Source of the DNA: Verrucomicrobiales bacterium
Lineage (GTDB): Bacteria; Verrucomicrobiota; Verrucomicrobiia; Verrucomicrobiales; DEV007
DNA: 64,000 nucleotides
Direction of reading: 5' to 3'
Assembly: GCA_029213195.1 (NCBI GenBank)
Contig: JARGNI010000020.1
Location: 1-64,000, forward strand
A model generated the notes under the pieces. That model was given only the letters and a program-made list of their open reading frames with translations, searched no databases and was not told the origin of the DNA. Both the position numbers and the translations under genes were made by a program. This document shows, piece by piece, positions 23,202 to 53,339 of this stretch. Every line of letters begins with the position of its first letter. Position 1 is the first letter of the stretch.

Positions 23202-23702
23202 TTACGTTTCGTGTTTGCCGCTATGGCTAATCTCTATCGTGAGTCCTTTCAATAAAATGTCTTGAGCCCAGGATCCGATCCCGGGATCTTCCGATTCGCG
23301 TGGTCCCGCGATATTGAGAGTCCGAATTGGATTCCGGGTCAGTAATTTTCGAATCTCTTCGCTGGAGCCTTTCCGCTCCCCCGTCACTACATAGCAAGGT
23401 CGATTCCAAGCCTTGGCAAATTTCTCGGTCAGTTCTGTTCCACCCTGCAATCGAGGCGCCCGACTCAGGATCAGCGTCGCGTCACTGTCCCGGACATTCC
23501 ACTCCGTTCTTTGGTCGGATTCGGCAGAAGCCGTCTCGGAAAGGCAAAACTGCGATGAAATCACTCCCAGTTCGTTGATGCGTCCCCGGGGACACCATCC
23601 TCCATGCGGAATTCCAAGAACGAGGGCCACCCGGAGGGCTGCCTCGTCCACTCCCGTCTGTCCTCCGGAAACCACTTTTGCGACCAGCGGCGACCCGATC
23701 AT
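23202..23702 (-). CDS. Putative molybdenum carrier / SLOG-like nucleotide-binding protein
   Basis: The product is 166 aa. It matches the Mo-carrier family (PF12694): VVSGGQTGVDEAALRVAL, GIPHGGWCPRGRINE, QRTEWNVRDSDATLILS and GGTELTEKFAKAWNRPCYVV. These are Rossmann-like proteins related to the LOG/TIR-associated SLOG fold. The molybdenum role is proposed from a few members, and the ligand here may be a nucleotide. ATG 23702 is chosen; a TTG lies one codon upstream. It ends 12 bases before the glgP start on the same strand, so the two may be cotranscribed. Confidence 0.85.
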   Translation of the reverse strand: MIGSPLVAKVVSGGQTGVDEAALRVALVLGIPHGGWCPRGRINELGVISSQFCLSETASAESDQRTEWNVRDSDATLILSRAPRLQGGTELTEKFAKAWNRPCYVVTGERKGSSEEIRKLLTRNPIRTLNIAGPRESEDPGIGSWAQDILLKGLTIEISHSGKHET

Positions 23703-35829: not shown

Positions 35830-37455
35830 TCAGTTCAGGGCGACCAGCACCCGAACCTGGTCCACTTCGCGACGACCGCTCTGCAGCTTGAGATTGAGCG
35901 TCTTCCGGTCGTCGCTGAGCAGGAACTCGTCGCTTCCCGAATCGAGACCCCTTGCGCGATTGAAAGACGCACCGTTCTCCTTCATCAAGGTCCCCACCGA
36001 TTCGTCGGAATTCGCGAGGCGATCCGACGAAAAAATCACCCCGACCACCGGATGGTCGAAAGTCAGCGAAGCCTCGACTTCCCCATCCTCGGACCGCTCC
36101 TCATCCGACCAGACCTGCAGCAGATAGCTTCGCAACTCCCCCGTTGCGTGCAGGGATTCCCCGGGGTTGTTCTCCGCCGAGGCAAACTGCCCCACCGCAA
36201 TCTGGTCGACCTCGAGATCCTTTTCGGGACGGAACGATTCGTTCTCGACGAACACCTGGACCTCTTCCTCCTCTTCGTTTGCCTCCACTTCGGCTCCGGG
36301 CAACTCGATCCGGACCGAGCCCAGGTTGTCCACCACCCCCGAAGCCATGGCCCAGGCCTTGGAGAAAGGCTGAGGATTGTAGGGAATATCGAGCAACTTG
36401 TCCCGATTCAAATCCGCCTTGATCGCCTCTCTCGCAAACAGGGAGCGACACTCTCCCTTGTCGAGGCAGACTCCGCCATCTCCCGAAAAGATGATCGCCT
36501 CGGTCGAGTTCTTCGATCGAGCATCGATCCCGATCAGGGGAACCGACTTGGAAACCGTAATCCCTTTCGAACGGATCTTGAGGGGCTCCTTGCTGGGTCC
36601 GGCCTTGGCGAGAGCCACACCATGATAGACGAAGGTCTCCTCGTCGTCCCCGAGTTCGAAACGAGCCGGTCCCTCGACCGTCAGTTCGGAGCCCGATTCG
36701 AAACGCAGGGAAACCACGCCCCGATCGAGTTGATAGCTCCCGGGAAGGATTTCTCCGTTCGCCGTCGGCTGTCCTTCCTGACCCCAGGCCACATCCGAAG
36801 ACACCTTCACGATCGTCGCCACCCCATCGGGAGCCAGCACCCGGGATGCGATCGTCTGCATCAGGAAAAAGGCACCGATCGCCACCGCCGCCGCGACCCC
36901 GGCCATCTTCGTGACCTGCCAGCCCCAGGAAGTCGGCATCGGGATGATATTCGATTCTTCCTCTGCAATCTGTTGATCGAGACGCTTCGTGAAGTCGTCG
37001 ACAAAGTGATCGGTCCGGGTCTCGGCCCACATCCGGGTCTCGAGAGCTTCGAGAAATGCCTCCTCCCCCTTCGCGGGATCCAAAGCCTCCCGCAGCCACT
37101 CATTCTCCGCCAGCAACTGGCGAAGCCTCGGCACATCGGCTTCCTTCTCGAGGAGAAGAGCCGCGAGCCGATTCCCCTCTTTGGACGAGAGCGATCCGTC
37201 CTCCACACGAGAAACCAGGTCGGAAAATTCGATCCCGGCGAGTTCCTCCATCTCGGTCCAGGAACTCGTCATCGATCCGGCATCCAGCTCGAGCGCACAA
37301 CGGATCCACTCGTCGAACTGGGCCTCCTCGCGAAACGCAGCGATCAGCTCCGGATCCGAAGCCAGTTCCTCGGTGAAACGAGACAGCGCGGTTTCGTCAA
37401 CGTCCCCTTCCCGGATCGCCTGCAGCCACTCTTCCCTGTTGTTTTCCCGATTCAT
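35830..37455 (-). CDS. FecR-like anti-sigma/transmembrane regulator
   Basis: The product is 541 aa. A cytoplasmic Glu-rich N-terminal region (about 1-165) precedes one membrane helix (MAGVAAAVAIGAFFLMQTIA). The periplasmic part begins with a FecR-like segment (VSSDVAWGQEGQPTANGEILPGSYQLDRGVVSLRFESG, then ELTVEGPARFEL). The C-terminal 200 residues are a second beta-rich region not found in plain FecR. The gene follows the ECF sigma gene by 9 bases, the typical sigma/anti-sigma layout in PVC bacteria, so it probably sequesters that sigma factor until an envelope signal arrives. The signal is unknown. Confidence 0.9.
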   Translation of the reverse strand: MNRENNREEWLQAIREGDVDETALSRFTEELASDPELIAAFREEAQFDEWIRCALELDAGSMTSSWTEMEELAGIEFSDLVSRVEDGSLSSKEGNRLAALLLEKEADVPRLRQLLAENEWLREALDPAKGEEAFLEALETRMWAETRTDHFVDDFTKRLDQQIAEEESNIIPMPTSWGWQVTKMAGVAAAVAIGAFFLMQTIASRVLAPDGVATIVKVSSDVAWGQEGQPTANGEILPGSYQLDRGVVSLRFESGSELTVEGPARFELGDDEETFVYHGVALAKAGPSKEPLKIRSKGITVSKSVPLIGIDARSKNSTEAIIFSGDGGVCLDKGECRSLFAREAIKADLNRDKLLDIPYNPQPFSKAWAMASGVVDNLGSVRIELPGAEVEANEEEEEVQVFVENESFRPEKDLEVDQIAVGQFASAENNPGESLHATGELRSYLLQVWSDEERSEDGEVEASLTFDHPVVGVIFSSDRLANSDESVGTLMKENGASFNRARGLDSGSDEFLLSDDRKTLNLKLQSGRREVDQVRVLVALN

Positions 37456-37464
37456 CGATCTTCT

Positions 37465-38013
37465 CTACGACGCCCCCAGGGGAGTCCCGATCTTTTCCTC
37501 CATACACTTCTTCAAAGCGACCCGAACCCGTTCGAGTGCCTTGCGGACTGCGGGAGGCTTCATTTCAAATTCTTCGGCGATATCCTGGGCCGAGAGGTCA
37601 TTCTCATACCGGGACTTCAAGAGCCCGAGGCTCTTTTCCGGGAGCGTTCTGATGCACTCCCGCAGGGCCGTAACCTTGGCCAGCGCCGTATCGCCGAGTT
37701 CGCGATCCTCTTCGTCGCTCACCGAGGAGCTCGAGACGAGAACATCCGTGAGGTTGTCCGAGAGAATCCGTTTTCTCCGGGCGCTCTTTCGGCGCTCGTT
37801 GATGACCAGGTTTCGCGCAATTCCCCGCAACCAGGGACCAAAATCCCGCTCCCGGTCGAACTCGTCGAGCCGGTTGTAGGCAACGATGAAAGCCTCCTGG
37901 GCCACATCATCGACCCAGAGCGGATCTACGCCCAGCGAACGCACGAAACCTCGCAGTCCCGCGTGGTGTTCACGGACCTGCTCGATGAAGAGCTCGCGTT
38001 GGGTGGAATCCAT
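37465..38013 (-). CDS. ECF-type RNA polymerase sigma factor
   Basis: The product is 182 aa from ATG 38013. Region 2 is GVDPLWVDDVAQEAFIVAYNRLDEF followed by GPWLRGIARNLVINERRK. Region 4 is LPEKSLGLLKSRYENDLSAQDIAEEFEMKPPAVRKALERVRVALKKCME, the helix-turn-helix. It belongs to the PVC-expanded ECF group that pairs with FecR-like partners, which is encoded 9 bases downstream. The promoter it recognises cannot be read from this window. Confidence 0.93.
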   Translation of the reverse strand: MDSTQRELFIEQVREHHAGLRGFVRSLGVDPLWVDDVAQEAFIVAYNRLDEFDRERDFGPWLRGIARNLVINERRKSARRKRILSDNLTDVLVSSSSVSDEEDRELGDTALAKVTALRECIRTLPEKSLGLLKSRYENDLSAQDIAEEFEMKPPAVRKALERVRVALKKCMEEKIGTPLGAS

Positions 38014-38183: not shown

Positions 38184-38255
38184 GCCACTGTAGCTCAGGG
38201 GTAGAGCAATTCACTCGTAATGAATAGGTCGTCGGTTCAATTCCGACCAGTGGCT
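38184..38255 (+). tRNA. tRNA-Thr (anticodon CGT)
   Basis: A 72-nt cloverleaf: acceptor GCCACTG/CAGTGGC with discriminator T, D arm TAGCTCAGGGGTAGAGC, anticodon arm ATTCA-CTCGTAA-TGAAT with anticodon CGT reading ACG, short variable loop, and T arm GTCGG-TTCAATT-CCGAC. CCA is not encoded. Reading by structure alone identifies threonine. Confidence 0.95.
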
Positions 38256-38418
38256 CGCCTCCGGGCGAGCCAGTAACCCCGGAGGGTTGAACCGACGAAG
38301 TCACTGCCCCTGGTCCCGCCGCCGCGGGATTTTCAATTCCGGCGCAGCCGCTCATCCGCAGGTCTCGCGTTCAGCGAGACAACTCCATTCCGACCCGTGG
38401 CTCGCCTCCGGGCGAGCC
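38238..38418 (+). repeat. Duplicated tRNA 3' end carrying an 8-bp hairpin
   Basis: A 34-base segment (38238-38271) that starts in the T-loop and runs past the tRNA recurs at 38385-38418 with two mismatches. In each copy GGCTCGCC and GGCGAGCC form an 8-bp stem around TCCG. In copy 1 the stem begins inside the acceptor 3' strand. The copies flank 113 bases. The arrangement resembles an att-site duplication, but no integrase is present. Confidence 0.75.
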
Positions 38419-38567: not shown

Positions 38568-38990
38568 ATGACCGACGAAGAACAGAAACAACTTCCCCTC
38601 GACGGACTCGAAGAGATGCCCCTGATGCCGCGTTGTGAGGAAACTGGGCAGAATGCCGACCTTCATCTCGTCGTGTATAAACCGGACGGAAAAGAATTCC
38701 CCATGGCCCGCATCTTGACCACCCAGGCCCGTCATCTCTATCGACACTCGACGACACTCAGCATCCCCATCTGGATCCTGACGCTCGAAAGCCTGCGCCG
38801 GCTCGAAGAGCGACAGAAAATTCCGCTTCAATCCGAGGCTTCCGAGACGGTTCGCCGGTGGTTGCGATACCACAAAGAGGCGGCATGGAAGGGCGTGATG
38901 GATGCCGATCGGGCGCGACAGGGGGAGCTTGGGCTCGATGACGACGGATCCCTGAACCTTGAGGGTCACACAGAAGAGTTAGCCCTGTAG
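38568..38990 (+). CDS. Hypothetical protein
   Basis: The product is 140 aa from ATG 38568 (MTDEEQKQLPLDGLEEMP). It looks globular and cytoplasmic: a mixed acidic N-terminus, then VVYKPDGKEFPMARILTTQA, a Leu-rich central segment (TLSIPIWILTLESLRRLEER) and an acidic C-terminus. Codon use is normal for the GC-rich part of the window. I do not recognise a family. It lies between the tRNA tail repeat and the AT-richer nuclease-fold genes, convergent with the SNase gene 39 bases away. Confidence 0.7.
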   Translation: MTDEEQKQLPLDGLEEMPLMPRCEETGQNADLHLVVYKPDGKEFPMARILTTQARHLYRHSTTLSIPIWILTLESLRRLEERQKIPLQSEASETVRRWLRYHKEAAWKGVMDADRARQGELGLDDDGSLNLEGHTEELAL

Positions 38991-39028
38991 GCTCGTCCCG
39001 CACAATCTGGAACGGATCGGGGAACCGT

Positions 39029-39919
39029 CTATTCCGTTGACTTTACACTCAGGAATTGACTGATCTCTGAAAGCGTAGCTTCGCCTATGCCACTCACACG
39101 TAGCAACCCATCGAGTGTTTCATAGGGTCGCCCTTCAATAATGCGGTTCGCCAGCGTCTCTCCAATACCGGGAAGCCGCATCAGTTCGTCACGTGCCGCA
39201 AGATTCGGATTGAGCGTTTCACCGGATAACAGCGGTGCATTGCCGGTTGCCATGCTGATCTCACGATCATCCTCTCGCTGTTGCTGCCTCTCCGAAGGGA
39301 GATTGGTCCAGATTGTCTTGCTCCACACCCCCTCATTGTTCTTCGCAGCGAGCAATTCCAAGTCTTTCAATCGTTCGCGATACTCCTCCCGGGTCATCCC
39401 GTGATAAGTTTCGCGGGAAACTCCGTAGGCCCTCGCCAAACCTTTCTGGACCAGCACTTCGGCGAGATCAAGTCCCTCTGAAGTCACAACAAAACCGTAG
39501 ATTCTTTTGTATTTGCCGTCTCCACGAGCATCTGCGTAGGCCGTGAAAAGAGTAAAAGGCTGCTGGAGAAGCTTTGTCACTTCTTTTGCTGCCGCCTCAC
39601 CAAATTCTTTTGCGATGCGAATCGATTCCTGGGGGCTTCCACCCGCCTTCGTAATGCCGAAGTATCGCCGCTGTTCCCTCAACCTTCTCGCATCGCTTTC
39701 GTCACCGATATGCCATTCGATGCAATCGGCTCCATAGAGGCGGACGGTATGCTCATCCCCCCCTGCAGTTCGAACCAAGAAACTGTCCCCGTCTGCCCAA
39801 TCCGCGGATACGAGAGTACATCCGACAAGTCGATTCAGAGGAGTCGAGGCATAGCCCCTTTCGGAAGCACAAAAACATGCTGCGACAACGACACAAGTTG
39901 TCAGGAATCTCCGGATCAT
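39029..39919 (-). CDS. Exported SNase-like nuclease with C-terminal HhH domain
   Basis: The product is 296 aa. ATG 39919 gives a signal peptide (MIRRFLTTCVVVAACFCA), and its ATG overlaps the stop of the 66-codon ORF upstream (ATGA). Residues about 30-190 form a thermonuclease/SNase-like domain: VSADWADGDSFLVR, HTVRLYGADCIEW, a helix with FGEAAAKEVTKLL, and GLDLAEVLVQKGLARAYG. Residues about 230-290 form a ComEA-like helix-hairpin-helix domain (AARDELMRLPGIGETLANRIIEG, then GLLRVSGIGEATL). A secreted DNA-binding nuclease, possibly for nutrient or competence DNA, is the natural reading. The gene is more AT-rich than its neighbours. Confidence 0.88.
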   Translation of the reverse strand: MIRRFLTTCVVVAACFCASERGYASTPLNRLVGCTLVSADWADGDSFLVRTAGGDEHTVRLYGADCIEWHIGDESDARRLREQRRYFGITKAGGSPQESIRIAKEFGEAAAKEVTKLLQQPFTLFTAYADARGDGKYKRIYGFVVTSEGLDLAEVLVQKGLARAYGVSRETYHGMTREEYRERLKDLELLAAKNNEGVWSKTIWTNLPSERQQQREDDREISMATGNAPLLSGETLNPNLAARDELMRLPGIGETLANRIIEGRPYETLDGLLRVSGIGEATLSEISQFLSVKSTE

Positions 39920-40116
39920 TCCGTCCAAAGCGAGTCGATATCGTAGATAGGTTCGTAAGAAGAGCATTTGTTTACAAGTGTGGCATATCCGATCACTCTA
40001 TGAGAATCAGCATCTTCCAGAAAGACAGGTAACACTGGCACCTTGGGTCGGGCAAGTTTCATCCAAACAGCTTTACAAGGCCAGTGCGCTGGAATTGATC
40101 GACCGAGAAAACTCAC
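39916..40116 (-). CDS. Small ORF coupled to the SNase gene (66 aa)
   Basis: GTG 40116 to TGA 39916 encodes 66 residues, ending ATGA over the SNase start. An in-frame TAA lies just upstream, so it is not the tail of a longer gene. The sequence has protein-like character (WMKLARPKVPVLPVFLEDA, then HRVIGYATLVN and YEPIYDIDSLW). I do not recognise a family. The overlap and codon use support it moderately. Confidence 0.4.
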   Translation of the reverse strand: MSFLGRSIPAHWPCKAVWMKLARPKVPVLPVFLEDADSHRVIGYATLVNKCSSYEPIYDIDSLWTE

Positions 40117-40181
40117 GCCCCCAAACTTTCTTTAAGCAAAACGCTAATTATTGGCTCTACTACTTCTGAGACGCTCCCTCT

Positions 40182-40709
40182 TCAGGATGGAAGGGGTAAG
40201 AGCAAATCTCGTTCACAGGAATATTCCGTCCAGGATACCGTCATCCACTTTCCTTTTCCCTTGGGGAGATTCTTTCGGAGGATTAGCTTCGCATCGATGC
40301 GATGATCGGAGTCGATCTCCACCACTATCAGAGCGCCAAAGTTCCCGGATCGCTTTACGCGAACCCGCTGGTGCCTTTTTCCAGGAGAGATGGTCTTCAC
40401 CTCGATAAGAAGGTCACCGATCCGACCATCTGATCCTTGTTGGCCGGAATCAGAGCGTTCCATTCCGAATCGCCGCTCCGCGTATAGTTCTCCAATCTCC
40501 CCGTAGATGGGGAGCCAACGGCCCTTGTCCTCGTAGTATTCCATCGCAAAGGCGAGGAGACCTTCGATACAAAAATTGTCTTCAAAAAAGTCTTCCCTGT
40601 TGGCCTCAATTTCGTCCCGACAAACCCAATCCCCATCTTCCCAGGGGCCTACTCGAGGATGCTCCTCGGAGTATCCTGGAATCCAGCGAAGGTGGGGAAA
40701 TCGTGACAT
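40182..40709 (-). CDS. Putative PD-(D/E)XK nuclease-fold protein
   Basis: The product is 175 aa from ATG 40709. The central segment has the order GEIGELYAERRFG (helix with GExxE), QQGSDGRIGDLLIEVKTIS (Asp94 or Asp99, Glu103-x-Lys105) and a later FGALIVVEIDSD strand, matching the restriction-endonuclease-like fold in DUF6998-like proteins. The E-V-K triad is intact, so catalysis is possible. There is no signal peptide. It lies 43 bases downstream of the NERD gene on the same strand and is AT-rich like it. The nuclease assignment is by motif, not by homology search. Confidence 0.75.
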   Translation of the reverse strand: MSRFPHLRWIPGYSEEHPRVGPWEDGDWVCRDEIEANREDFFEDNFCIEGLLAFAMEYYEDKGRWLPIYGEIGELYAERRFGMERSDSGQQGSDGRIGDLLIEVKTISPGKRHQRVRVKRSGNFGALIVVEIDSDHRIDAKLILRKNLPKGKGKWMTVSWTEYSCERDLLLPLPS

Positions 40710-40752
40710 TGGGACTGGTAACTTACTTTTCTACATACTGGACGAGCGCGAA

Positions 40753-41727
40753 TCACTTACCAAGTCCTGGCCTTTCTTGAACTCTCCTCGTCCGAACCTT
40801 CGAAAATACTTCCCTCCGAGATTTCCTAGAACTCGCGTTCGCACCCTTGATTCTCTTCTCAGCGGGATCCTTTGGAAGCTCCACCCGTGTCAATTCCTCG
40901 AGTCGCTTTTCCAGCAGTTTCCACGACCGGTCGTCCAGGGACTTCGCATTTCCTCGAAGTAGCTGACGGATTTGCTTTTCATTTACTACCACGACCTCTC
41001 CCCTCGCCGTCGAGGAAGCAAACCATCCCGGGTAGGTCAACACGGGTGTCACGTCGACAGGGACATCTCCAGTCCATTCTCGAGCTGACTTTCTCAACCA
41101 TTTCGCCTGTCTGATCACCTGATTCAGATTTTCTGTATCGTAGCTCCCATCTGGAAAATTAATCTTGTGACCATCATACGTCAGCTTATGCCGATCCTGA
41201 TCAGCCACCTTCTTCCTGCGGCACTTCGTCTCGATGGCGAGCAGGCCGCTACCAGTCAAGACGATGTGATCGAAGTTCCACACCGATCCATTTTCCTCGA
41301 CAACGAGATCATGAAAGACTCGTACCCTCTCATTCTGCAAGGCATCGAGTTCTGCACCAACACATTGCTCGCCTCGCAGCCCGGACCACATATTCGGAAG
41401 AGGCCGTATGACGTTCCAAGTCTGCCACAAGCAAAATCCGCAAGCGAAAACTCCAATGATTAGGATTGGGATACTCCAAGAACTTCCCAACAAAGAAATC
41501 GCAAGAATCGGAAAAAAGCTGCTGAAGACGGAAGCCGTCAGCCAAGTGGTAAACCGCTCCCACTGCTCCTCGCTCCTTTCCCTCAAACTATACCCAGCCG
41601 GGCGACGCATGGATTTAAAAGGCCGGACTGCATTGCGACGATTCTCGTGAAGCTTCCAGAGAAAGCTGACCAAGACCAGAAACGGTAGAAAAGGAAAACT
41701 AAACAGAAGCCAAATGGGAACGTTCAT
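40753..41727 (-). CDS. Membrane-anchored NERD-domain protein
   Basis: The product is 324 aa. ATG 41727 is chosen over an upstream GTG because it begins with a membrane helix (MNVPIWLLFSFPFLPFLVLV). A second helical pair lies at about 70-100. The NERD domain (about 105-225) has RGEQCVGAELDAL, NFDHIVLTGSGLLAIETKC (Asp143, Glu156, Lys158) and an ALN-type NLNQVIRQAKWLR. NERD is related to PD-(D/E)XK nucleases. The C-terminus is very basic and nucleic-acid-binding in character. A TATAAT promoter precedes it. It is the first gene of the minus-strand nuclease-fold run. Confidence 0.88.
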   Translation of the reverse strand: MNVPIWLLFSFPFLPFLVLVSFLWKLHENRRNAVRPFKSMRRPAGYSLRERSEEQWERFTTWLTASVFSSFFPILAISLLGSSWSIPILIIGVFACGFCLWQTWNVIRPLPNMWSGLRGEQCVGAELDALQNERVRVFHDLVVEENGSVWNFDHIVLTGSGLLAIETKCRRKKVADQDRHKLTYDGHKINFPDGSYDTENLNQVIRQAKWLRKSAREWTGDVPVDVTPVLTYPGWFASSTARGEVVVVNEKQIRQLLRGNAKSLDDRSWKLLEKRLEELTRVELPKDPAEKRIKGANASSRKSRREVFSKVRTRRVQERPGLGK

Positions 41728-41783
41728 AGCGGGCCCCGGCAATGTAAGGGGCAAACCGCGCGACACAAAAAGAAATTATGGAA

Positions 41784-41812
41784 ATTATAAAAGCGAGGGG
41801 TGTAGGTCTCGA
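41784..41812 (-). promoter_or_regulatory. Promoter of the NERD gene
   Basis: On the minus strand TCGAGA (41807-41812) and a perfect TATAAT (41784-41789) are spaced by 17 bases. This puts the start of transcription about 50 bases before the NERD ATG. Confidence 0.6.
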
Positions 41813-41838
41813 TTTTGCACCCCCTCCTACCAAGCGCG

Positions 41839-42125
41839 ATGCGCGAGGCCGGATACAGATGGCAGGCGGTCTCCCCCACCCCGGCCGTGCACAAGCTGAT
41901 CTTTGCTGCCTCGAAATTTGAGTTCGAAGTCGGCGACTTGCCCCCCCCCAATTCGACCGATCGGCGATCTCGAATCTTCTCCATTTGAAGTTTGCGGACT
42001 TTCCCGTGGAGATGGTCGGAGTGCGGGCCCTCGCCTACAAGAAAACAACTGACAAGCATGCTTGCTGGGAAGAGATGGCCGATATCTCGAATCAAGGGAA
42101 TAAGAAAGAAACACCCGATCCATGA
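41839..42125 (+). pseudogene. Candidate gene interrupted by a frameshift at a C9 tract
   Basis: ATG 41839 reads MREAGYRWQAVSPTP through GDLPPP at the C9 run (41941-41949), then goes out of frame. With one more C the frame would continue (QFDRSAISN, ADFPVEMVGVRALAY, and so on) to a TGA at 42123-42125 that overlaps the sulfatase ATG as ATGA, 95 residues in all. Both halves read as protein-like, and the stop overlap is the usual coupling geometry. It may be a pseudogene, a phase-variable gene or a base-calling error. The minus strand is also open here. Confidence 0.35.
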
Positions 42126-43483
42126 GCCGAATTTTCCTTCTCCTCCTTTCCAGCCTCAGCCTCTTCTCTCAAGGGCTTGCCGAGACGACTCCGCCGAACA
42201 TCGTCTTCTTCTTTGCCGATGACCTCGGCTACGGAGACCTCGGATGCTATGGGCACCCCTACGCGAGAACTCCGAACCTCGACCGCCTTGCGGAAGAAGG
42301 AACCCGTTTTACGCAGGCCTACGTCACTGGGGTGACCTGCAATCCCAGCCGAACCGGCCTCATGACCGGTTTGCATCCAGCGAGATTTCAACGCTACGCT
42401 GCGGACTTCGGTTTTGGAGACCGGGTCACGATCTCGGAACTGCTGAAACGACAGGGCTACAGGACGGGGCATTTTGGGAAATGGCATATTGGTCCTGACT
42501 CGACCGAGGTCGATGGGATGTATGGCCTCGATGTGGTTCAGGTGATTGGGAAGAGCAAAGGGGAGGATGCCGGTCGGGACGACGATCTGACCACTGCAGC
42601 AATTGCCTTCATGAAGGAGAACGCCGCCAAGCAGCCGATCTATGTGAACATCTGGGGGCACAGCACTCATTTCCCTGTCACGGTGCCTCCCTCACTTGCC
42701 GGAGAATTCGAGGAGATCGAGGTCGACCGAGAAGACTTTGCAAAAACGATGCAGCACAAGTTCGACGAATGTCAGGAAATTGGCGGAGATCTCGACGAAT
42801 CGATGCGGCAGTATCTTGGCGACGTTTGGTCGATTGATCGCAATGTGGAACGAGTTCTTGCAGCGATCGATGAACTGGGGATCCGGGACAACACGATCTT
42901 CGTTTTCTCCAGCGATCACGGACCCGCTCCGGTCATTCTCGGGAAGAAAGGGGCAAGAGAATTTTCGAACAACATGCTGGGGTATGCGGGAATCCATCGG
43001 GGCGGAAAACACACCTTTTTTGAAGGCGGCACGCGGGTCCCATTTCTCCTTCGCTGGCCAGGCAAAATCCCGGAAGGGCATGTCGATTCCGAAAGCGTCA
43101 TCTCCTTCATTGACTGGATGCCGACCATAGCTTCCATCGCGGGGATTGAAGAACTACCTCGCAAGATGGATGGGGAAGATGTATCGGAAATCTGGTTTGG
43201 TCAGGGTAGAGAGCGTGCGAACCCGCTGTTCTGGCAGGTCAGCTCGCAAGGTGCTTCCGGGGTGATGCGCCAGGGAAAGTGGAAATTTCACGAGGCGGGG
43301 AAAAGGGGAGAAAATCAGCTCTACGACCTTTCGACCGACCCGTCGGAAAAAAAGAATCTTGCCAACGATCATCCCGAGGTGGTTGCGGAGTTGAAAGAGA
43401 AGCTCGATGCCTGGCAGGCGGAATTGCCGAAGTCGTATGAGAAGAGGAAGAATGCTTCGAAGCGGGAAAAGAAGGTGAAGTAA
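42122..43483 (+). CDS. Secreted arylsulfatase-family sulfatase
   Basis: The product is 453 aa from ATG 42122 with a signal peptide ending at GLA. The N-terminal sulfatase domain has metal residues in FADDLGYGDLGCYGHPYART and the formylglycine motif CNPSR (Cys73). HFGKWHIG, SSDHGP and GGKHTFFEGGTRVPFLLRW follow. The C-terminal part has a QLYDLSTDPSEKKNLA motif. It would remove sulfate from a sulfated glycan. A modifying enzyme would be needed to make formylglycine and is not in the window. The GC content is normal, so it is not part of the AT-rich run. Confidence 0.94.
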   Translation: MSRIFLLLLSSLSLFSQGLAETTPPNIVFFFADDLGYGDLGCYGHPYARTPNLDRLAEEGTRFTQAYVTGVTCNPSRTGLMTGLHPARFQRYAADFGFGDRVTISELLKRQGYRTGHFGKWHIGPDSTEVDGMYGLDVVQVIGKSKGEDAGRDDDLTTAAIAFMKENAAKQPIYVNIWGHSTHFPVTVPPSLAGEFEEIEVDREDFAKTMQHKFDECQEIGGDLDESMRQYLGDVWSIDRNVERVLAAIDELGIRDNTIFVFSSDHGPAPVILGKKGAREFSNNMLGYAGIHRGGKHTFFEGGTRVPFLLRWPGKIPEGHVDSESVISFIDWMPTIASIAGIEELPRKMDGEDVSEIWFGQGRERANPLFWQVSSQGASGVMRQGKWKFHEAGKRGENQLYDLSTDPSEKKNLANDHPEVVAELKEKLDAWQAELPKSYEKRKNASKREKKVK

Positions 43484-43492
43484 ACTTTTTGC

Positions 43493-44707
43493 TCAACTTT
43501 CCTCTTCGCCAAGCAGCACCTCCAGTGCATCGGCGAGCCGCTCGCACTGCTCGACTTCGTTGTACGCCTGGGCACTGATGCGGAAGCCTCGCTTCGGATG
43601 ACGGGGTAGCGGAAACATGGGCAAATCAATCGCATACCGCTCAAAAAGTTGTCGCTGCAGCCTTAGGGTGGGAGTCGGTGTGCTCGCCCAATCCAGTTCA
43701 GGCTCCGCTGAAGGATCATCGGGGAGAAACACGGTGGCGAGGGAACCGATCATTGTTTCAGGCGCCACGGTTTGCGTTCCCAGGCGCTCAATCAGAAGCC
43801 GCCGCCCCTGGAGAACGACGTCGCGATTTCGCTTCATCAACGCCTCGATCCCTCCCGGAAAAAGCCCGCTTAAGAATTGGATCGCATCCGCAATACACGC
43901 CCAGGCGGTGGGGTCGAGCGTTCCCGGCCAATCCATCACATCCGAAAATCGGCTGCGTCCTTCCCGCGGGGTATTCCACCCATGACTGATGACCAGGGGA
44001 GCGATGCGGTCCTGGAACCTCGGTTTCACCCAGAGGAAACCAGCTCCTTTCGGAGCGCAAAGCCACTTGTGGCAATTCCCGGTGTAGAAGTCCGCTCCCA
44101 AGGACTCGATATCGAGGGGAAACATCCCGGGAGCATGGGCACCATCGATGAGAACGAGGGCGTCCCGGGATTTCACCAGGGTGATCAGTTCTTCCAGCGG
44201 GAAGATCAATCCTGTTCCGCTGGTGACGTGATCGATGATTGCAATGCGAGTGCGTTCGCTGAGCGCGTCGCAGACGGCCTCCAGCACTTCATTCTCATGC
44301 TGGATCGGCAATTTGATTTCTGCTTCCACTACGCTCGCACCTGAACGCTCTGCCACATAGCGCGCTGCGTTGTTGCAGGCGTTGTATCCCATATTGGTCA
44401 CGAGAATCTCATCTCCTTCGCCCCAGTCTCGTTCGAGTGAGCGCAGCACGGTGTTCACCCCCGCTGTGGCATTTGTTATCAAAGCAAGATCACCTGGCGA
44501 AACGTTCAGCAGCTCTCCCAAGGCCGCTAGTGAGCCATCCATGAGCGGCTGCATTTCCCGGGTCAGGAACTGAACCGGCTCCCGTTCCATGTGAGCGCGC
44601 AATTCAGCCTGGCGATCCAATACCGCGACCGGGCAGGCACCGAAGGCTCCGTGATTCAAGTAGTCGATCCTGGGGTCCAGGGACCATAGATCTTCGAGAG
44701 CACTCAT
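43493..44707 (-). CDS. Class V aminotransferase (isopenicillin-N epimerase-like)
   Basis: The product is 404 aa from ATG 44707. It is a fold-type I PLP enzyme with YLNHGAFGACP, a TNATAGVNTVLRSL phosphate-binding region, IIDHVTSGTGLIFPLEEL, LIDGAHAPG (Asp of the PLP pyridine) and DFYTGNCHKWLCAPKGAGFLW, with the Schiff-base Lys in the HKW motif. This layout fits the isopenicillin N epimerase/cysteine desulfurase-like subgroup. The substrate is unknown. It is convergent with the sulfatase and starts 50 bases before the end of the DUF-type membrane gene upstream. Confidence 0.92.
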   Translation of the reverse strand: MSALEDLWSLDPRIDYLNHGAFGACPVAVLDRQAELRAHMEREPVQFLTREMQPLMDGSLAALGELLNVSPGDLALITNATAGVNTVLRSLERDWGEGDEILVTNMGYNACNNAARYVAERSGASVVEAEIKLPIQHENEVLEAVCDALSERTRIAIIDHVTSGTGLIFPLEELITLVKSRDALVLIDGAHAPGMFPLDIESLGADFYTGNCHKWLCAPKGAGFLWVKPRFQDRIAPLVISHGWNTPREGRSRFSDVMDWPGTLDPTAWACIADAIQFLSGLFPGGIEALMKRNRDVVLQGRRLLIERLGTQTVAPETMIGSLATVFLPDDPSAEPELDWASTPTPTLRLQRQLFERYAIDLPMFPLPRHPKRGFRISAQAYNEVEQCERLADALEVLLGEEES

Positions 44708-44757
44708 GTCCTAGACTGACGGCGTTCGGACGAAAGGGAACAGAAATCGCGTGGCGC

Positions 44758-45183
44758 CTATTTTGGTTGCGAACCCTTCGCTCCCGCCAGTTTTCCTCCC
44801 AGGTAGGCCATGGGCAAATATGCGCCGACGAGGTCTGCCACAGCAAACCACACCGGTCCACCATGCATCGCGACCATCATGATTCCTCCTGTCAGGAAAA
44901 GCGCCCCGATTCCCAGGGCGAATTTCATCCGATGGCTGGCCGCCAGTTTTGCGGCAACAAAGGCTCCCACCAGGGTACCGAGAGCGTGGGCCAGCCAGGG
45001 AGCAATGAAGTGAACGGGCTCAAGTAGCTTCAAGTTCTCGGAAAACTTTTCGGGATCGGACATATCAACACCCTCCGGCGGTGGAATCACCATGGGCCCG
45101 ATCATGATGATCGCCATGTTGATCACGCTGCCGAGGACAATTCCGGCGAGCACCGCCAACACATTTCGGAGAATCGGATGCAT
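44758..45183 (-). CDS. Small integral membrane protein (four helices)
   Basis: The product is 141 aa from ATG 45183 with about four membrane helices: NVLAVLAGIVLGSVINMAIIMIG, IAPWLAHALGTLVGAFVAA, FALGIGALFLTGGIMMV and FAVADLVGAYLPMAYLGG. There is a Pro/Glu-containing loop of about 25 residues between helices 1 and 2. I do not recognise a named family. It lies upstream of the aminotransferase gene on the same strand. Confidence 0.8.
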   Translation of the reverse strand: MHPILRNVLAVLAGIVLGSVINMAIIMIGPMVIPPPEGVDMSDPEKFSENLKLLEPVHFIAPWLAHALGTLVGAFVAAKLAASHRMKFALGIGALFLTGGIMMVAMHGGPVWFAVADLVGAYLPMAYLGGKLAGAKGSQPK

Positions 45184-45446
45184 CTCACCACTTCATCAAA
45201 CTTGGAGCCGACTCGTCACGCCAAATCTACACCTAGCGCCCAGCTTTAGGGGATGTGATCTCGCACGGGTGGAGGGAACTCCACTTCGTATCCCCGTTCC
45301 TCGTGCCCCCCGGCGGTTGATTCTTGAGACGCTTTCCTAGATCACCGTTAGGAATTCGCTTTTCCACTCCGACGCTCCCTCACGGCACATTGCCCCGGCT
45401 TGGAGAGGGTCGCCTGAAAGCCATCCGAGAATCGCGCTCCCGAGTC

Positions 45447-46745
45447 TCACCAACTCTCGTATCCGAGCCACTGCTCCCCCGCCCGGTCGATGGCCTGCTG
45501 CCAGGAATCAGGAGCGTGTCGCTTCAGTCGACCGAGGATTTCCCGCTTCACCCTTTCCGTAGGCTCCATGACGGCGAGTCGCCGTTTCTCCCGGGAGGTG
45601 AAGACGAGACTCTTTTGAAAGGTTCTCGGAAGAGGCACTCCGACCCGAACGGTGGCGAGATAGGATTTCTTCGATTCGATCGATTCGAGATCCGACCAGG
45701 TGATGCGTCCCCCTCTCCCCGGCGACTTCAGAACAATGGAGTCCCCATCGATTGCGACCCACTGGGATCCGATCGTGGAAAGATACAGGGAGACCGCGGG
45801 AACGCCGACCAAGAGGAAGAATCCACCCATCCAGCGACCGAACTCTTCATCGGCAATGGCCTCGACCAGGAAAACGCGATGAAACGCGAGATCGATCCAG
45901 GGCACGAAGGCGATCGCACTCAGGACGACCACGACGGCATCCCCTGCCATCTGCTGTCCAGCCGATCCCACTCGAATGGCGCCCCGGAATCCAGCCCCCT
46001 GCCGATACAGTTTGGTCAGCAGAATCAATCCCACCGCCACGAGAATTCCTCCCCCGACTCGTCGTCCGGTCTGCAGGCCATCGACTGCCTGTCGCCGATC
46101 GACGATCCGCTCTTCGCCCCGTATCTCGAAGACCTCGCCCTTGTACTCTGCAAGCGTGGCATCGGGCCCGGCAAATCGCCGCCAATCTTCCAGGGAGAAG
46201 ATTTCGTCCCCCGCAGCCCCTTCGAAGAGGACCTGCAATCCGGGCACTTTGCGCATCGATTCAGGCGAAATGAGAAGACCGGTCCCAGGCGGAAACCGTT
46301 TTCCCAACCAAGTGACCTTCACAATCTCGGGCAGGTCCTCCGCTACCTGGGCTCCGTATTTTTCCGCGAAAGCCCTCTGGTACCCGACCTGATTCCGGAT
46401 CCGGAAAAGGCGGTCGCGGTAGAGGAGCAGGAAGGAACTGTCGGCCACCCGGAACGCCTCCAAGGGGAGGAAGGAGTCCACGTTTTCTCCCGGTTCCCGC
46501 AAGGTTCGGGATCCTTCAAAAGAGTCGTCTTCCAGGAGTGCAAGCACTTGTGCAGGGAACCGTTTCGTTTCCTCTTCCTCCGGCTGCCAAGCCTCGCGAG
46601 GCGTCTCCGAAAAACCGATTTTCTTCGCCACTGCGACCTCGACCTGGACACTCTCCAATCGAAAGTCGGGAAACGGAAACAACAGGCCGGCCAGACCCGC
46701 CGCGAGCAGGAAAACCGCAACGATGCGGACGATCCAGTTGATCAT
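45447..46745 (-). CDS. Membrane protein with C-terminal PH-like region, unknown
   Basis: The product is 432 aa from ATG 46745. It begins with a membrane helix (IVRIVAVFLLAAGLAGLLF). A periplasmic stretch with acidic and Tyr/Arg-rich sequence follows (about 30-225), then three helices (about 230-330). The C-terminal part (about 335-432) reads VAIDGDSIVLKSPGRGGRITWSDLESIESKKS, a bacterial PH-like layout. It is the last gene of the 50.5-45.4 kb minus-strand run. No enzymatic motif is visible. Confidence 0.8.
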   Translation of the reverse strand: MINWIVRIVAVFLLAAGLAGLLFPFPDFRLESVQVEVAVAKKIGFSETPREAWQPEEEETKRFPAQVLALLEDDSFEGSRTLREPGENVDSFLPLEAFRVADSSFLLLYRDRLFRIRNQVGYQRAFAEKYGAQVAEDLPEIVKVTWLGKRFPPGTGLLISPESMRKVPGLQVLFEGAAGDEIFSLEDWRRFAGPDATLAEYKGEVFEIRGEERIVDRRQAVDGLQTGRRVGGGILVAVGLILLTKLYRQGAGFRGAIRVGSAGQQMAGDAVVVVLSAIAFVPWIDLAFHRVFLVEAIADEEFGRWMGGFFLLVGVPAVSLYLSTIGSQWVAIDGDSIVLKSPGRGGRITWSDLESIESKKSYLATVRVGVPLPRTFQKSLVFTSREKRRLAVMEPTERVKREILGRLKRHAPDSWQQAIDRAGEQWLGYESW

Positions 46746-46806
46746 ATTTCTCCCGTATCTTTCCGGCCAGCACGAGCCACCACCGAGCAGGACCAGCCCG
46801 TTTTCA

Positions 46807-47859
46807 TCACAAATTCTCGCCCGATTCGATTCCGGTGATCGCCCAGCGACCGTCGATTTTCCTGAGCTGATAGAGATCTCCCCCCGCGTCTGGCGGACCG
46901 ACCACGACGGAAGCCGTGGTGCCGTCGTTGCTCTTCTCGACGAACCACAAATTCTCTCGTGTCCCCCCGTAGTCGAAATCCACGCTCACCTTCTGATCGG
47001 TGATCTTCGGCGAACCCACTCGCGTCACTTCCTCCCTGCTGAAAAGAGGATTTACCACGTAGATGTAGGTGACCTGAGCCGGTGTTTGATAGAATTCATA
47101 CATCTCCTCGTCGAGGAAAGCGGGATAGAGGCTCGTGATCTCGATATCGTCGATATAGATCGTCCCGGCGAACCAGCTGGCTTCGAGGCTGAAGGATTCA
47201 CGACGTTCCCCAAGATCATGAATGGTCGCGCTCAACTCCTGCCAGCCGCTCTCTGGGCGGACAATCCATTCACGCAATTCCGAGTTCTGTTGGGGATCGA
47301 TCACTCGCAGGCGAATCTTGACGCCGGGAGGGGCACGACCGGGCTCAAGGGTTTCCAGCGACACGGTGGGTGGGATCCAAACCCGGAACGAAAAACGGAC
47401 TCCCTTGACGTCGGGAGGGACCGTGAGCGCATGCTCGAAATAGTCCTCGGTCGTGAACGCCATGACGCGGTTGTCGGGATCGGCCGGGTCCTGAACCACG
47501 GTCCCGCCTCCGGGCTCCATCGAAATCCCCGTTTCAAAATTCCCGGCGGCGAAGAACGAAGGGGTCGCCGGTTTCGCTTCCACCATTCCGCGCCCAGGTT
47601 CAGTCGGCTCGCCACTCACCCCGAGGTTCTCCTCATGATGATCTACGAGTTGTGATACGCCCTTCCGAATGACGGCAGACTGCTTTGCCAATTCCGCGTC
47701 AAATCGCTGCGAACCAAGCCCTTTGCGAAGTCGATAGAGCACTTCCGCATGTCCTTCGGCTGCCACGCCATCCAATCTCAGGGAAAAGAGATTCGCCAGT
47801 TCGCCGCGATCTCCGGCGGCGGCACGGGCGACGGCGGCCCGGTAGTCGAGATCATACAT
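46807..47859 (-). CDS. Hypothetical protein with jelly-roll-like domain
   Basis: The product is 350 aa. ATG 47859 overlaps the previous gene's end by 8 bases; a start 21 bases earlier is possible. A helical N-terminal part (about 1-85, YDLDYRAAVARAAAGDRGEL) precedes a beta-rich region (about 100-235) with NFETGISMEPGGGTVVQD, a series of hydrophobic strands and IYIDDIEI, which reads like a carbohydrate-binding jelly roll. A C-terminal part (about 235-350) contains LYQLRKIDGRWAITGIE, a short SnoaL/NTF2-like ending. I assign no function. Confidence 0.75.
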   Translation of the reverse strand: MYDLDYRAAVARAAAGDRGELANLFSLRLDGVAAEGHAEVLYRLRKGLGSQRFDAELAKQSAVIRKGVSQLVDHHEENLGVSGEPTEPGRGMVEAKPATPSFFAAGNFETGISMEPGGGTVVQDPADPDNRVMAFTTEDYFEHALTVPPDVKGVRFSFRVWIPPTVSLETLEPGRAPPGVKIRLRVIDPQQNSELREWIVRPESGWQELSATIHDLGERRESFSLEASWFAGTIYIDDIEITSLYPAFLDEEMYEFYQTPAQVTYIYVVNPLFSREEVTRVGSPKITDQKVSVDFDYGGTRENLWFVEKSNDGTTASVVVGPPDAGGDLYQLRKIDGRWAITGIESGENL

Positions 47860-48871
47860 TGACCATCTGGACGGTCTCATCTTCCCGCCCCGGCACTTCC
47901 GGACGCGTAAACTCGGCGATCAATTCGACAACGGCTTGCGGATCGCCTCCCTCACCGGTCTCGGTGCCGGAAGAGCGACTCTTCGTCATTTCTCCCGGGT
48001 CGTCTCCATTGCCCTCGCGGATCTCGGATCCAGGAAGCTGCTCGGAGCGAAGGGCCAGATCGGCAATGGGGGCATCGAGAGCGCTCGTGAATTCCTCCCG
48101 CATCTCTTCCGGGCCGAGGAGGAGATAGAGGACTGAGTCACGGACCAGGATCTCCCCGTCGAAACCCAGTTTCTCCAGGTAGTCCTCGATGTCGGACTTC
48201 TCCTCTTCCAAAGGGACATCCATGACCCCTACCTCGAGCGATGCACCGTCGGCCATCACCTCAACCACAGCCCCAGCGAAATCCTCCAACCTCACGGAGT
48301 CGGGCTCTTCGGTGTATTCGAAATGAAGAAAGACATCGAGCGCGGATTCCGCCTCCGTCGATGACACCTTCCAGCCGGGCTTCACTTCACAGACCCCCGG
48401 CAACCAGTTCCTCGGTTCGCCCAGGGGGAGCATGACGAGGTTCGCCTCGATCGCACGAACGAAATTGGGCAAGTGTCCCGTCGCCGTACCTGCGGAGCGC
48501 ACTGTGCTCGCGGGGAGAGTGATCGTCCCGATGGGAGCCCCGCCAGCATGAAACACGATCTCGATCTGCTCTACCCAAGGAGCCGACGCCCCGGTTGCGA
48601 GAGAGGCCGCACAAATTTGACCGATGAGAAGATCCCGATCCTTCACCCCGGATCGGAAAGCGACGACCGCTTTCTTCTCATCCATTCCTACCGCGACATC
48701 CAGCAACCCGGCATCCTCGACGAGAAATACCTCGAGAGCCCGCTCTATCAAAGCCACCTCCTTCTCCTCTGGCGGGGCAGAAGCGGCGATGACGGTTGAC
48801 CAGACCAAGCAAACGCCGAGGCAAGTCCAGCGGAGCGCTCTCCGTATTTTTTGGGACGATTCAGGCTTCAT
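47852..48871 (-). CDS. Secreted hypothetical protein
   Basis: The product is 339 aa. ATG 48871 gives a basic leader and hydrophobic segment (RRALRWTCLGVCLVWSTVIAASA) and overlaps the previous gene by 11 bases; an ATG three codons upstream is an alternative. The mature protein is acidic, with no known motif; two long alternating segments (about 40-180 and 180-300) may be a repeated fold. The 3' end overlaps the next gene by 8 bases, so the run is translationally coupled. Confidence 0.75.
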   Translation of the reverse strand: MKPESSQKIRRALRWTCLGVCLVWSTVIAASAPPEEKEVALIERALEVFLVEDAGLLDVAVGMDEKKAVVAFRSGVKDRDLLIGQICAASLATGASAPWVEQIEIVFHAGGAPIGTITLPASTVRSAGTATGHLPNFVRAIEANLVMLPLGEPRNWLPGVCEVKPGWKVSSTEAESALDVFLHFEYTEEPDSVRLEDFAGAVVEVMADGASLEVGVMDVPLEEEKSDIEDYLEKLGFDGEILVRDSVLYLLLGPEEMREEFTSALDAPIADLALRSEQLPGSEIREGNGDDPGEMTKSRSSGTETGEGGDPQAVVELIAEFTRPEVPGREDETVQMVNV

Positions 48872-50522
48872 CGATCGCATATTTTGTGGCCGCCAGTCTC
48901 TTCGCCGCAGCCTTCCAGTAGTCCTTGAAAGCATCGTTTCCCTTGACCTTCCCAATGAGGTCTTTGCCCGTCGTCTTCTTCAGGTATTCATTGTAATCCT
49001 TGAGCTTTCCGTCCCATTCATTGGCCTTGGAAACGAGGGGTTCCTTACTTGTCACCAACTCCCCCAGAAGATTCATGGCCTCCGCGACTTCCCCGGAAGG
49101 TCTCTGGATGTTCTTGGTGAATCGCTTCAAATTCGAAGACCCAGATTTCCCCTTCGCGGCGTCCTCCATGTCTTTCTTGATGGCATTGGCGAGCCCAAGC
49201 AGCATCCAGACCTTTCGATTTCCGGGTGAAGCCTTCTCGATCATCTCCCCGACCTTCTTTTCATAGACCCCTTGCCAGCCAAACTCATCGCCTGCAGCTC
49301 CCGTTGCGTTCTCCGGCCTCTCGATCGGCTCGAGTCGGATCGTCGGCATCCAACTCTTGTAATCGGGATAATCTCCGAGCGGGAAGTTGCACTGGTGATT
49401 CCCGTAGGCACGCCGAGTGCCCGTTTTTGACTGACCATTGACCGTCACCTTGACGATCGCATTCTCGATGGCGGCCCCGCCCATTTTTATCGTAGCCCCC
49501 CAGAAACGAAACTCGCCCAGGGGTTTGGAATAGCGAAAACACCGCTCGATCGTTACCGGATGGTAGTCAGGAGCCGATACCTCCACCCGGACGCGGTAGG
49601 CGGGAAGTTCCGACTCCATCTGGAAATCCAAGCTCCCGGAATCCGACTCCCCTTCCTCCCCTTTCGGGTTTTCCAACTGAAGGATGTATCGTCCGCTGCG
49701 GTCGGTCCTGACCTGAACCTGCTCCCCTCCTCTCACTTTGCCGGTGACCACCGCATTCTTGACCCCGACTTTCAGGGCGCGGTCATTGACCCGCCCGACA
49801 ATCTCGATCTCCCGGGCCGTATCCGAAACCATGAGTTGGCCGAGCCGATGAGGGTAGCCCTTCTTCATGCAGGCCAGGATCACCATCTGCTTACCCCGCA
49901 CGCTCGCTTCGAGAGGATGAGGGCTGTGCAGGAAATGCGTCACCATCCACCGAGATCCGACCGAGTGGGAAAGAACTCCCCTGAGACGCATCTCGTAGCA
50001 GGATTCCGGAACGGTGAAGGAAGCCTCGAAGGGGATGGTAGCTGTCTCCTCAAACGGGTCCGTGCGCTCCTTCCTCGGGGACACGTCCACGGCTTCCGTC
50101 ACGAGATGCATGGATCCGCCTTCCGCCACTTTGAGTTCCTGCCGCTCGTTTTTCAGATCGGAGAGCAAGGTCCAGGCCGCTCCCCGATCCTGGTAGAGGT
50201 CGCCTTGAGCCCCCATCGTATCGGGCAGCAAAGGCCAGGCCTGTTTCTCGTCCGTCTTGAAATCCAGGTGAATTTCGATCTGATGGCTCACGCGAGTTGT
50301 CATGAGGCCGCCTCCGCCCCATCCGCGAGTGACCTTGACTTTCATCGTCCCTTTGACGACCACCTCGTCACCCGGCAGGTAAGGCCCCTTCGGCTCAACC
50401 GATTCGATCGACATCGCCGAGGAAATCCCCCAGGAAACAGATGGCATCGCCAGGCACCCCAGCAGGGCAATTACACAGACGCCCCTTCCACCCACCGAAT
50501 TCAGAATCCTCTGGCAGTCCAT
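48861..50522 (-). CDS. Large secreted hypothetical protein with beta-rich domains
   Basis: The product is 553 aa from ATG 50522 with a signal peptide (VCVIALLGCLAMPSVSWG). A first beta region (about 40-210) has a Gly-rich turn (TRGWGGGGLMTTR) and metal-free Ig-like strands. A carboxypeptidase-regulatory-like part (about 240-300: VTGKVRGGEQVQVRTDRSGRYILQL) follows, then further strands and a Lys-rich helical C-terminus (about 430-553). It is the first gene of the cluster and faces the divergent vWA gene. The family is unrecognised. Confidence 0.8.
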   Translation of the reverse strand: MDCQRILNSVGGRGVCVIALLGCLAMPSVSWGISSAMSIESVEPKGPYLPGDEVVVKGTMKVKVTRGWGGGGLMTTRVSHQIEIHLDFKTDEKQAWPLLPDTMGAQGDLYQDRGAAWTLLSDLKNERQELKVAEGGSMHLVTEAVDVSPRKERTDPFEETATIPFEASFTVPESCYEMRLRGVLSHSVGSRWMVTHFLHSPHPLEASVRGKQMVILACMKKGYPHRLGQLMVSDTAREIEIVGRVNDRALKVGVKNAVVTGKVRGGEQVQVRTDRSGRYILQLENPKGEEGESDSGSLDFQMESELPAYRVRVEVSAPDYHPVTIERCFRYSKPLGEFRFWGATIKMGGAAIENAIVKVTVNGQSKTGTRRAYGNHQCNFPLGDYPDYKSWMPTIRLEPIERPENATGAAGDEFGWQGVYEKKVGEMIEKASPGNRKVWMLLGLANAIKKDMEDAAKGKSGSSNLKRFTKNIQRPSGEVAEAMNLLGELVTSKEPLVSKANEWDGKLKDYNEYLKKTTGKDLIGKVKGNDAFKDYWKAAAKRLAATKYAIDEA

Positions 50523-50819
50523 ACCTAATGATGAACGCGTTACCGCTTCCTACTTTGCAGCAAATGTTCAATCCACCGCGTCGTTTGCGCGGTCAGCGAT
50601 CGGATTGTGGGCCCAGGCCATGCAACCGCATTGGGATACCAAAGCTTGGGTTTTTCCTATTCCCGCGTTCCTGGCCCGCCTCGATCCGGCCGAAACAGTG
50701 AAGGAGGCGAAGCTCCGAGACCTTGGAAATAGCGCAGAAAGGTGTCACAAAATGGGAAGAAATATGCCAATTTAGATGGTGAAGCAGGATTCCTGCCTCG
50801 AAACCACACCGACGCGCTC
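50523..50819. other. Divergent intergenic region between the orphan cluster and the vWA gene
   Basis: About 300 bases hold no supported gene. An in-frame GTG at 50742 could extend the vWA gene by 26 residues. The rest is non-repetitive and must hold promoters for both directions, but no clear -35/-10 pair was found. Confidence 0.5.
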
Positions 50820-53264: not shown

Positions 53265-53295
53265 GCCGATCCTTTCCTGACTCTTCTCCCTTCCC

Positions 53296-53311
53296 GCTTC
53301 GAACACGAAGC
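53296..53311. terminator. Short hairpin between convergent genes
   Basis: GCTTCG (53296-53301) pairs with CGAAGC (53306-53311) around AACA. It lies between the vWA gene and the convergent adenylate-kinase-like gene. There is no T-run on either side, so its role is tentative. Confidence 0.35.
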
Positions 53312-53339
53312 TGGTGGGAGACCATGAGCGATCCGCTGC

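Follow-up and report, generated by a model that had tools for sequence, protein, structure and literature searches.

A 64,000-nt stretch of a Verrucomicrobiales genome (the window, which is contig C36 of genome G000, a 5.9-Mb draft of 115 contigs) carries on its minus strand two adjacent genes, one coding for a protein with a NERD domain and the other for a protein of 175 amino acids with a predicted PD-(D/E)XK core, hereafter P175. We tentatively propose, at slightly less than an even chance, that NERD (40753-41727) and P175 (40182-40709) form a horizontally acquired two-gene nuclease module that would cut incoming DNA. The first-pass annotation of this sequence had proposed a system of four minus-strand genes, comprising NERD, P175, a 66-codon open reading frame (ORF) and a gene for a protein with SNase and helix-hairpin-helix domains (SNase-HhH). 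The NERD, PD-(D/E)XK-like and SNase-HhH genes are indeed found there, as confirmed by Pfam matches and the ORF list. The acquired insertion is real and contains a two-gene nuclease pair, smaller than the four-gene system, within about 12.5 kb of accessory DNA, which is larger than that system.

The NERD gene (40753-41766, minus strand) is an open frame of 337 amino acids; translation probably begins at the ATG at 41727, close to the start of most aligned relatives. The NERD domain (PF08378) is recognised with 54.7 bits against a cut-off of 22.1 and spans residues 128-237, after two 19-residue hydrophobic segments (open-frame residues 18-36 and 87-105; Kyte-Doolittle). Judged from this hydrophobicity, it is most likely an inner-membrane protein whose PD-(D/E)XK domain would face the cytoplasm. 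Residues E133, D166, E179 and K181 (E179-x-K181), whose assignment as the PD-(D/E)XK active site is our own, are invariant in nine of nine aligned sequences. The other Pfam match is a weak one to DUF6594, and no meaningful sequence relative was found in the PDB. NERD relatives occur in 22 of the 141 genomes searched, the own genome being included in this and all following genome counts. A second, weaker NERD match lies elsewhere in the own genome (L184, on G000:C97), with an E-value of 1.6e-4, over the cut-off.

P175 (40182-40709, minus strand) is a member of an unnamed family similar to DUF6998. Its candidate active site, composed of E74, D94 and E103-x-K105, is identical in all 39 aligned sequences; this is the PD-(D/E)XK-like protein in which the first-pass annotation had described an intact E-V-K. 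The predicted structure has a mean predicted local distance difference test score (pLDDT) of 81.2, with block means of at least 90 for residues 51-170 and values mostly below 50 for residues 1-35. The model contains a helix at 38-62, a helix at 68-81 that bears E74, and strands at 95-97, with D94 just before, and at 100-107; it has in this way the helix with a glutamate and the strands with aspartate and E-x-K that characterise the PD-(D/E)XK fold. A Foldseek search with this model returned NhoI and Eco15I as the first 12 PDB rows (E 6e-6 to 1.3e-3), followed by Hjc (7.8e-3). With VIA-align, the model superposed on NhoI with a Z of 9.6 (root-mean-square deviation of 2.8 A over 103 residues, 18% identity), on I-Ssp6803I with a Z of 9.1, on archaeal Hjc with a Z of up to 8.6 and on PvuII with a Z of 7.2. 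Since rows within one Z unit are ties, only the description of P175 as a restriction-type PD-(D/E)XK protein is firm.

NhoI and Eco15I are 5-methylcytosine-dependent restriction enzymes of the BisI family, whose members are modification-dependent and have many homologues of 150-190 amino acids, according to two reports (PMC4926085; PMC11347163). P175 is like the members of that family in being small and stand-alone, in having a PD-(D/E)XK core preceded by an extra helix (175 amino acids; helix 38-62 before helix 68-81), and in carrying a glutamate in the first core helix, then an aspartate and x-x-K. It differs from them in its E-x-K, which is QVK in NhoI and QIK in Eco15I, and in size from the BisI homologues linked to mobile elements, which are described as larger (PMC4926085; PMC11347163). 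No recognisable sequence similarity to NhoI or Eco15I was found, and a P175 profile gave 0 matches among PDB sequences up to an E-value of 10. Further hallmarks of the BisI family are an (H/R)(V/I/T/M) pair close to the C-terminus that binds the methyl group and the cutting of GCNGC on condition that its cytosines are methylated. We therefore describe P175 as BisI-like, resembling NhoI and Eco15I in its predicted fold; for want of a sequence match to them, membership in the BisI family goes beyond the evidence. The closest Pfam family is DUF6998 (PF22522), which 38 of the 39 members of the P175 alignment, the window's included, match weakly at E<=0.1 (best 1.1e-6); the window's P175 stays under the membership cut-off (17.4 bits against 27, E 0.0043). 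A literature search on DUF6998 found no paper.

Genes for P175 were present in six of the 141 genomes, and a wider scan of genome contigs yielded 122 stretches that encode such a protein, from which 80 loci were retained. The hosts are Verrucomicrobiota, Alpha-, Beta- and Gammaproteobacteria and, in one record, Dehalococcoidia; the closest named relatives are from Verrucomicrobiales metagenome-assembled genomes. Relatives also occur in 57 plasmid records, 41 of them typed conjugative, and 19 of the 20 plasmid rows listed are annotated as hypothetical, the other being without an annotated feature. A phage origin was considered and rejected, with no match in 50,697 phage records and a single viral contig. 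The genes next to P175 were surveyed through 90 cluster representatives of the +1 and -1 neighbours, covering proteins of 75 to 1100 amino acids within 1.2 kb at loci other than L093 and L094; 25 of 93 Pfam families and 25 of 83 PADLOC families are listed, so that absence from these lists is uninformative. The families listed include type III and type IIG restriction enzymes, HamA, AbiEi, ArdC, antirestriction proteins, an integrase, a resolvase and TnsD. In the window, no methyltransferase family was recognised among the Pfam-scanned genes at 35830-38013 and 38568-54548, and the cognate methyltransferase that stands beside the nuclease in a type II restriction-modification system is thus missing for P175.

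These data bear on an alternative in which P175 is not a defence nuclease and serves mobile elements in DNA processing, as a Holliday-junction resolvase or a homing-type endonuclease. The alignments to I-Ssp6803I and archaeal Hjc, both within one Z unit of NhoI, the predominance of conjugative plasmids among the records, and the integrases, resolvase and TnsD among the neighbour representatives all speak in its favour. However, Foldseek sets NhoI and Eco15I apart from the best Hjc row, one P175 relative (L157) begins 1 nt after a type III restriction subunit, and the neighbours of others match AbiEi, HamA and type IIG models. We consider this alternative improbable. In G005, P175 (L049 560-1511) is without its usual N-terminal part and lies at the end of a 296-aa open frame, and because of the missing N-terminus and the longer frame it may be fused to another domain. 

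NERD and P175 stand side by side, on one strand and in unchanged order, in G000, G006 and G025, at different loci in each, that is, in three of the six genomes with P175. The first-pass annotation had suggested looking for co-occurrence of the NERD and PD-(D/E)XK proteins in other genomes; these two were found together in G006 and G025, and the four-gene group was missing from the relatives searched. In the window the two genes are separated by an intergenic gap of 43 nt (40710-40752, minus strand), and they are probably co-transcribed. The paired NERD proteins share 44-61% identity and form one clade with support of 93/94 in a tree of nine sequences, for which reason the pairing probably arose once; the P175 proteins of G000 and G006 are 53% identical. 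Among the remaining genomes with P175, NERD and P175 lie on different contigs in G005, and G043 and G059 have a remote NERD match (E 7.8e-19 and 2.0e-16) on a contig other than that of P175. The other two pair loci hold known or candidate defence genes. In G006 the pair is on contig C78 (the tRNA-Thr site of this genome, empty, is on C16); after it come two genes for type I methyltransferases, a PDC-S31 candidate and a specificity gene. The G025 pair adjoins a 706-aa protein with a second NERD, near a PDC-S60 match; this protein is encoded just upstream of the pair (L048 11075-13195), and its NERD is remote (E 5.8e-5).

A joint function of NERD and P175 is argued from the fact that their adjacency has been kept through divergence and in different places of the genomes. 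The competing explanation is that the two are independent passengers, P175 being an orphan endonuclease of mobile elements and NERD a membrane protein with another job, brought side by side by one inherited chance event. P175 elsewhere adjoins many different genes and no constant partner was seen, and the single clade of paired NERD proteins fits one such event. A membrane NERD protein can also be a morphology factor, as described for SmdA of Staphylococcus aureus (PMC9040797). Against independent passengers, the gene order persists even though the proteins have diverged to about 45% identity for NERD and to the value given above for P175, and the pair is found at different genome sites. We judge this explanation rather unlikely, although less so than a DNA-processing role. 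SmdA itself is described as lacking a number of the residues that are most conserved in NERD, whereas the presumed active site of the window's NERD is invariant in the nine relatives (PMC9040797).

Several further observations weigh, together with SmdA, against a joint module with a role in defence. Neither NERD nor P175 has a match in PADLOC-DB 2.0.0. The NERD genes of several relatives stand alone, and of 81 loci (L093-L173) a NERD profile detects NERD in two, which belong to G006 and G025, even at an E-value of 10; P175 therefore mostly occurs without this kind of NERD, with the qualification that the profile, built from nine relatives, is narrower than that of Pfam and misses the remote NERD in the 706-aa protein (L093). 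The P175 neighbour families listed also include housekeeping proteins, among them ribosomal proteins L20 and S9 and IF3. Finally, the P175 gene of G025 (L048 9504-10028) is interrupted by one in-frame stop, whereas the NERD frame beside it is open; accordingly the pair is perhaps in decay in this genome, or else the draft is in error.

If NERD and P175 do form a module, the NERD protein would be held in the inner membrane with its nuclease domain facing the cytoplasm, and P175 would be a small soluble restriction-type endonuclease acting without a methyltransferase of its own. Together they would cut foreign DNA at entry or soon after. P175 would select the target, possibly by base modification in the manner of the BisI family, and NERD would provide the position at the membrane. 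Cutting at entry is suggested by analogy with SNIPE, a nuclease bound to the membrane that cleaves phage DNA while it is being injected (PMC13190303). The nuclease domain of SNIPE is anchored there through the N-terminal part of the protein (PMC13190303), an arrangement that is predicted for NERD. In SNIPE, DUF4041 and GIY-YIG are joined in one protein, whereas in the window the NERD domain and P175 belong to two proteins, and Pfam recognised neither DUF4041 nor GIY-YIG in the NERD protein. In Dnd neighbourhoods (PMC10853773) and in a rare YprA system (PMC12458937), NERD has been reported to serve as an accessory nuclease. The window's NERD is like these proteins in being a predicted PD-(D/E)XK nuclease, and theirs lie in defence neighbourhoods (PMC10853773; PMC12458937). 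Dnd or YprA proteins were not recognised by Pfam in the window's insertion, and the literature matches listed for NERD with defence contain no description of a NERD-P175 pair. What the data establish is the genes themselves, their conserved active-site residues, the fold predicted for P175, the adjacency in three genomes and a location in variable or defence-type DNA; membrane insertion, nuclease activity, cooperation of the two proteins, target choice and a defensive purpose are inferred. A defence function of the pair is a reasonable hypothesis.

A more far-reaching version holds that the pair is an undescribed entry-restriction system, in which an inner-membrane NERD and an orphan, possibly modification-sensing P175 would cut DNA at the point of entry, and that the P175 family, with its genome stretches and plasmid records, would be a new and widespread class of small orphan restriction enzymes; this we regard as speculative and improbable. 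If the pair acts as proposed, the defences located at the cell membrane would gain a two-part nuclease module, and a function would be suggested for a family of small plasmid-borne proteins mostly annotated as hypothetical. Its small size and the clear structural reference provided by NhoI make the activity of P175 testable on purified protein.

The other two members of the proposed four-gene system fared differently. SNase-HhH (39029-39967, minus strand) is a clear member of its families (SNase, PF00565, 35.2 against a cut-off of 21; HHH_3, 45.1 against 27), and it probably starts at the ATG at 39919 and has a probable signal peptide. SNase-type proteins occur in 109 of the 141 genomes. Relatives of SNase-HhH, 51-69% identical, lie beside unrelated genes in the loci read, with no constant neighbour, and in the other five genomes with P175, tblastn against the P175 loci (14.8-20 kb) found no SNase relative up to an E-value of 1. 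We conclude that SNase-HhH is probably an unrelated exported nuclease and a chance downstream passenger. The 66-codon ORF (39916-40116, minus strand) is an open frame with an odd composition, its GC content at third codon positions (GC3) having a z-score of -5.5. It had no relative in the loci searched beyond two chance-level matches (E 0.46 and 0.69); as a gene it was rejected for this reason, and it is probably not one. The promoter-like site upstream of NERD (TCGAGA-17-TATAAT, 41784-41812, minus strand) is one of two found, against 1.8 in shuffled sequences, which is not above chance, and 262 nt separate P175 from the likely SNase start; the single promoter assumed for the run is accordingly not upheld. 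The four genes do share a strand and a similarly low GC content. The first-pass annotation had itself named absence of the group from relatives as an outcome that would tell against it; in the relatives searched the group was missing, and three nucleases in a row working together find no support there either. The four-gene system was rejected, since SNase-HhH has no constant neighbour and is missing from the P175 loci of relatives; already contradicted in this way, it is hardly credible.

A separate observation concerns two relatives of SNase-HhH. On G011:C2 (L057) and G026:C47 (L058), runs of called genes of equal lengths appear in reverse order; they include an SNase-HhH relative 69% identical to that of the window and, as tested in L057, a Tubulin_2 protein (E 1.2e-34). 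Either the two genomes share a mobile element of recent origin, or their assemblies were mixed up.

Composition was compared with 39 reference genes of the window located outside 38.3-50.5 kb, using gene calls from a simple codon-score script that shortens some genes. SNase-HhH, P175 and NERD have GC contents of 53.0%, 52.5% and 51.0%, against 57.4 +/- 2.2% in the reference genes, GC3 z-scores of -2.9, -2.4 and -2.4 (reference 68.0 +/- 5.0%), and codon-use z-scores of -3.7, -1.8 and -3.4, respectively. Lone reference genes are equally deviant, with a GC z-score of -2.9 (at 5159), a GC3 z-score of -2.8 (at 1) and a codon-use z-score of -3.1 (at 23202); the signal is therefore the run of three low-GC neighbours and no one value. 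The remaining called genes of 38.3-50.4 kb are within 2 standard deviations of the reference. The lower GC and deviant codon use expected by the first-pass annotation were thus observed for the three nuclease-fold genes as a run, but the low-GC patch is not the whole island, since the insertion extends over about 38.26-50.8 kb.

This region is an accessory insertion at a hot spot, as follows from the site being empty in 13 of 15 testable genomes of the genus and from other genomes having other DNA there. On the left, the site begins at tRNA-Thr (CGT; 38184-38256, plus strand), the gene that the first-pass annotation had placed beside the island, and beyond it is a conserved flank gene for an extracytoplasmic function (ECF) sigma factor (37465-38013, minus strand; 30 of 33 genus genomes at E<=1e-30). 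The conserved right flank is a gene for an 814-aa protein with a tetratricopeptide repeat (TPR) match (50820-53264, plus strand; 31 of 33 at E<=1e-100). Both flank genes were on the same contig in 15 of the 33 genomes, the other 18 having them on separate contigs or missing and being not testable for the site. The spacing was 418-1002 nt in 13 of these 15, 7.4 kb in G011 and 12.8 kb in the window's genome. In nine of the 13 empty sites tRNA-Thr(CGT) was seen between the flanks in the loci read; for the other four (G001, G012, G013 and G018) the evidence is the distance between the flanks. That this DNA was acquired at a tRNA site, as first suggested, is therefore supported.

Besides the genes discussed above, the insertion contains a 140-aa accessory gene of unknown function (38568-38990, plus strand), present in eight of the 141 genomes and in no other of the genus, and a sulfatase gene with unremarkable GC content (42122-43483, plus strand). 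The rest (43493-50414, minus strand) codes for two proteins found in the own genome only, a class-V aminotransferase (one of 33 at E<=1e-60) and a 517-aa protein (one of 141 at E<=1e-20), and for four further called proteins whose Pfam matches are weak or lacking. No integrase family was found among the Pfam-scanned genes at 35830-38013 and 38568-54548, and a repeat search revealed no copy of the tRNA tail near 50.8 kb that could be a far attachment (att) site. The window's insertion thus has neither the integrase beside the tRNA nor the far att copy of a tRNA-integrated mobile element. Other relatives have different cargo at this tRNA. G014 and G007 have similar-looking elements directly after tRNA-Thr(CGT), and a 414-aa protein of the G007 element matches the phage integrase family PF00589 (E 4.8e-10), a tyrosine recombinase. 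In G004 (L079 1992-11218), tRNA-Thr(CGT) is followed by genes for a STAND NTPase, a SIR2-TIR protein and a second TIR protein, likely a defence cluster at the same hot spot.

The tail of tRNA-Thr, with a hairpin (38237-38271, plus strand), recurs at 38384-38418; the two copies are 35 nt long, 94% identical and 147 nt apart, so the duplication noted by the first-pass annotation exists. Its use as a mark of the island does not hold, for copies are shared by relatives with an empty site (G006, G031 and G026). The repeat as the att site of the island was rejected on the same ground, together with the far end being without a copy. Rfam at the repeat recognised the tRNA itself and a sub-threshold antisense match to tRNA, with no other RNA family, and an inverted T-arm copy noted by eye in the tail units was not found by a scan allowing up to five mismatches in 20. 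The tail units are reminiscent of the E. coli tyrT repeats, and Rfam gave no match at these units; the literature matches listed on tyrT repeats held nothing of use. One to three tail copies, from the T-loop to the 3' end, lie downstream of tRNA-Thr(CGT) in six of the 17 genus loci with a readable flank (an 18th, G032, was excluded, its contig ending at the tRNA): the window (38257-38418), L073 (2272-2600), L074, L076, L082 and L079. G006 has three copies, 108 nt apart. In G006, and for one of the two G004 copies, the tail copies resemble most the tRNA of the same genome. As empty sites carry it, the tail repeat is a feature of the tRNA locus in several relatives and not of the island.

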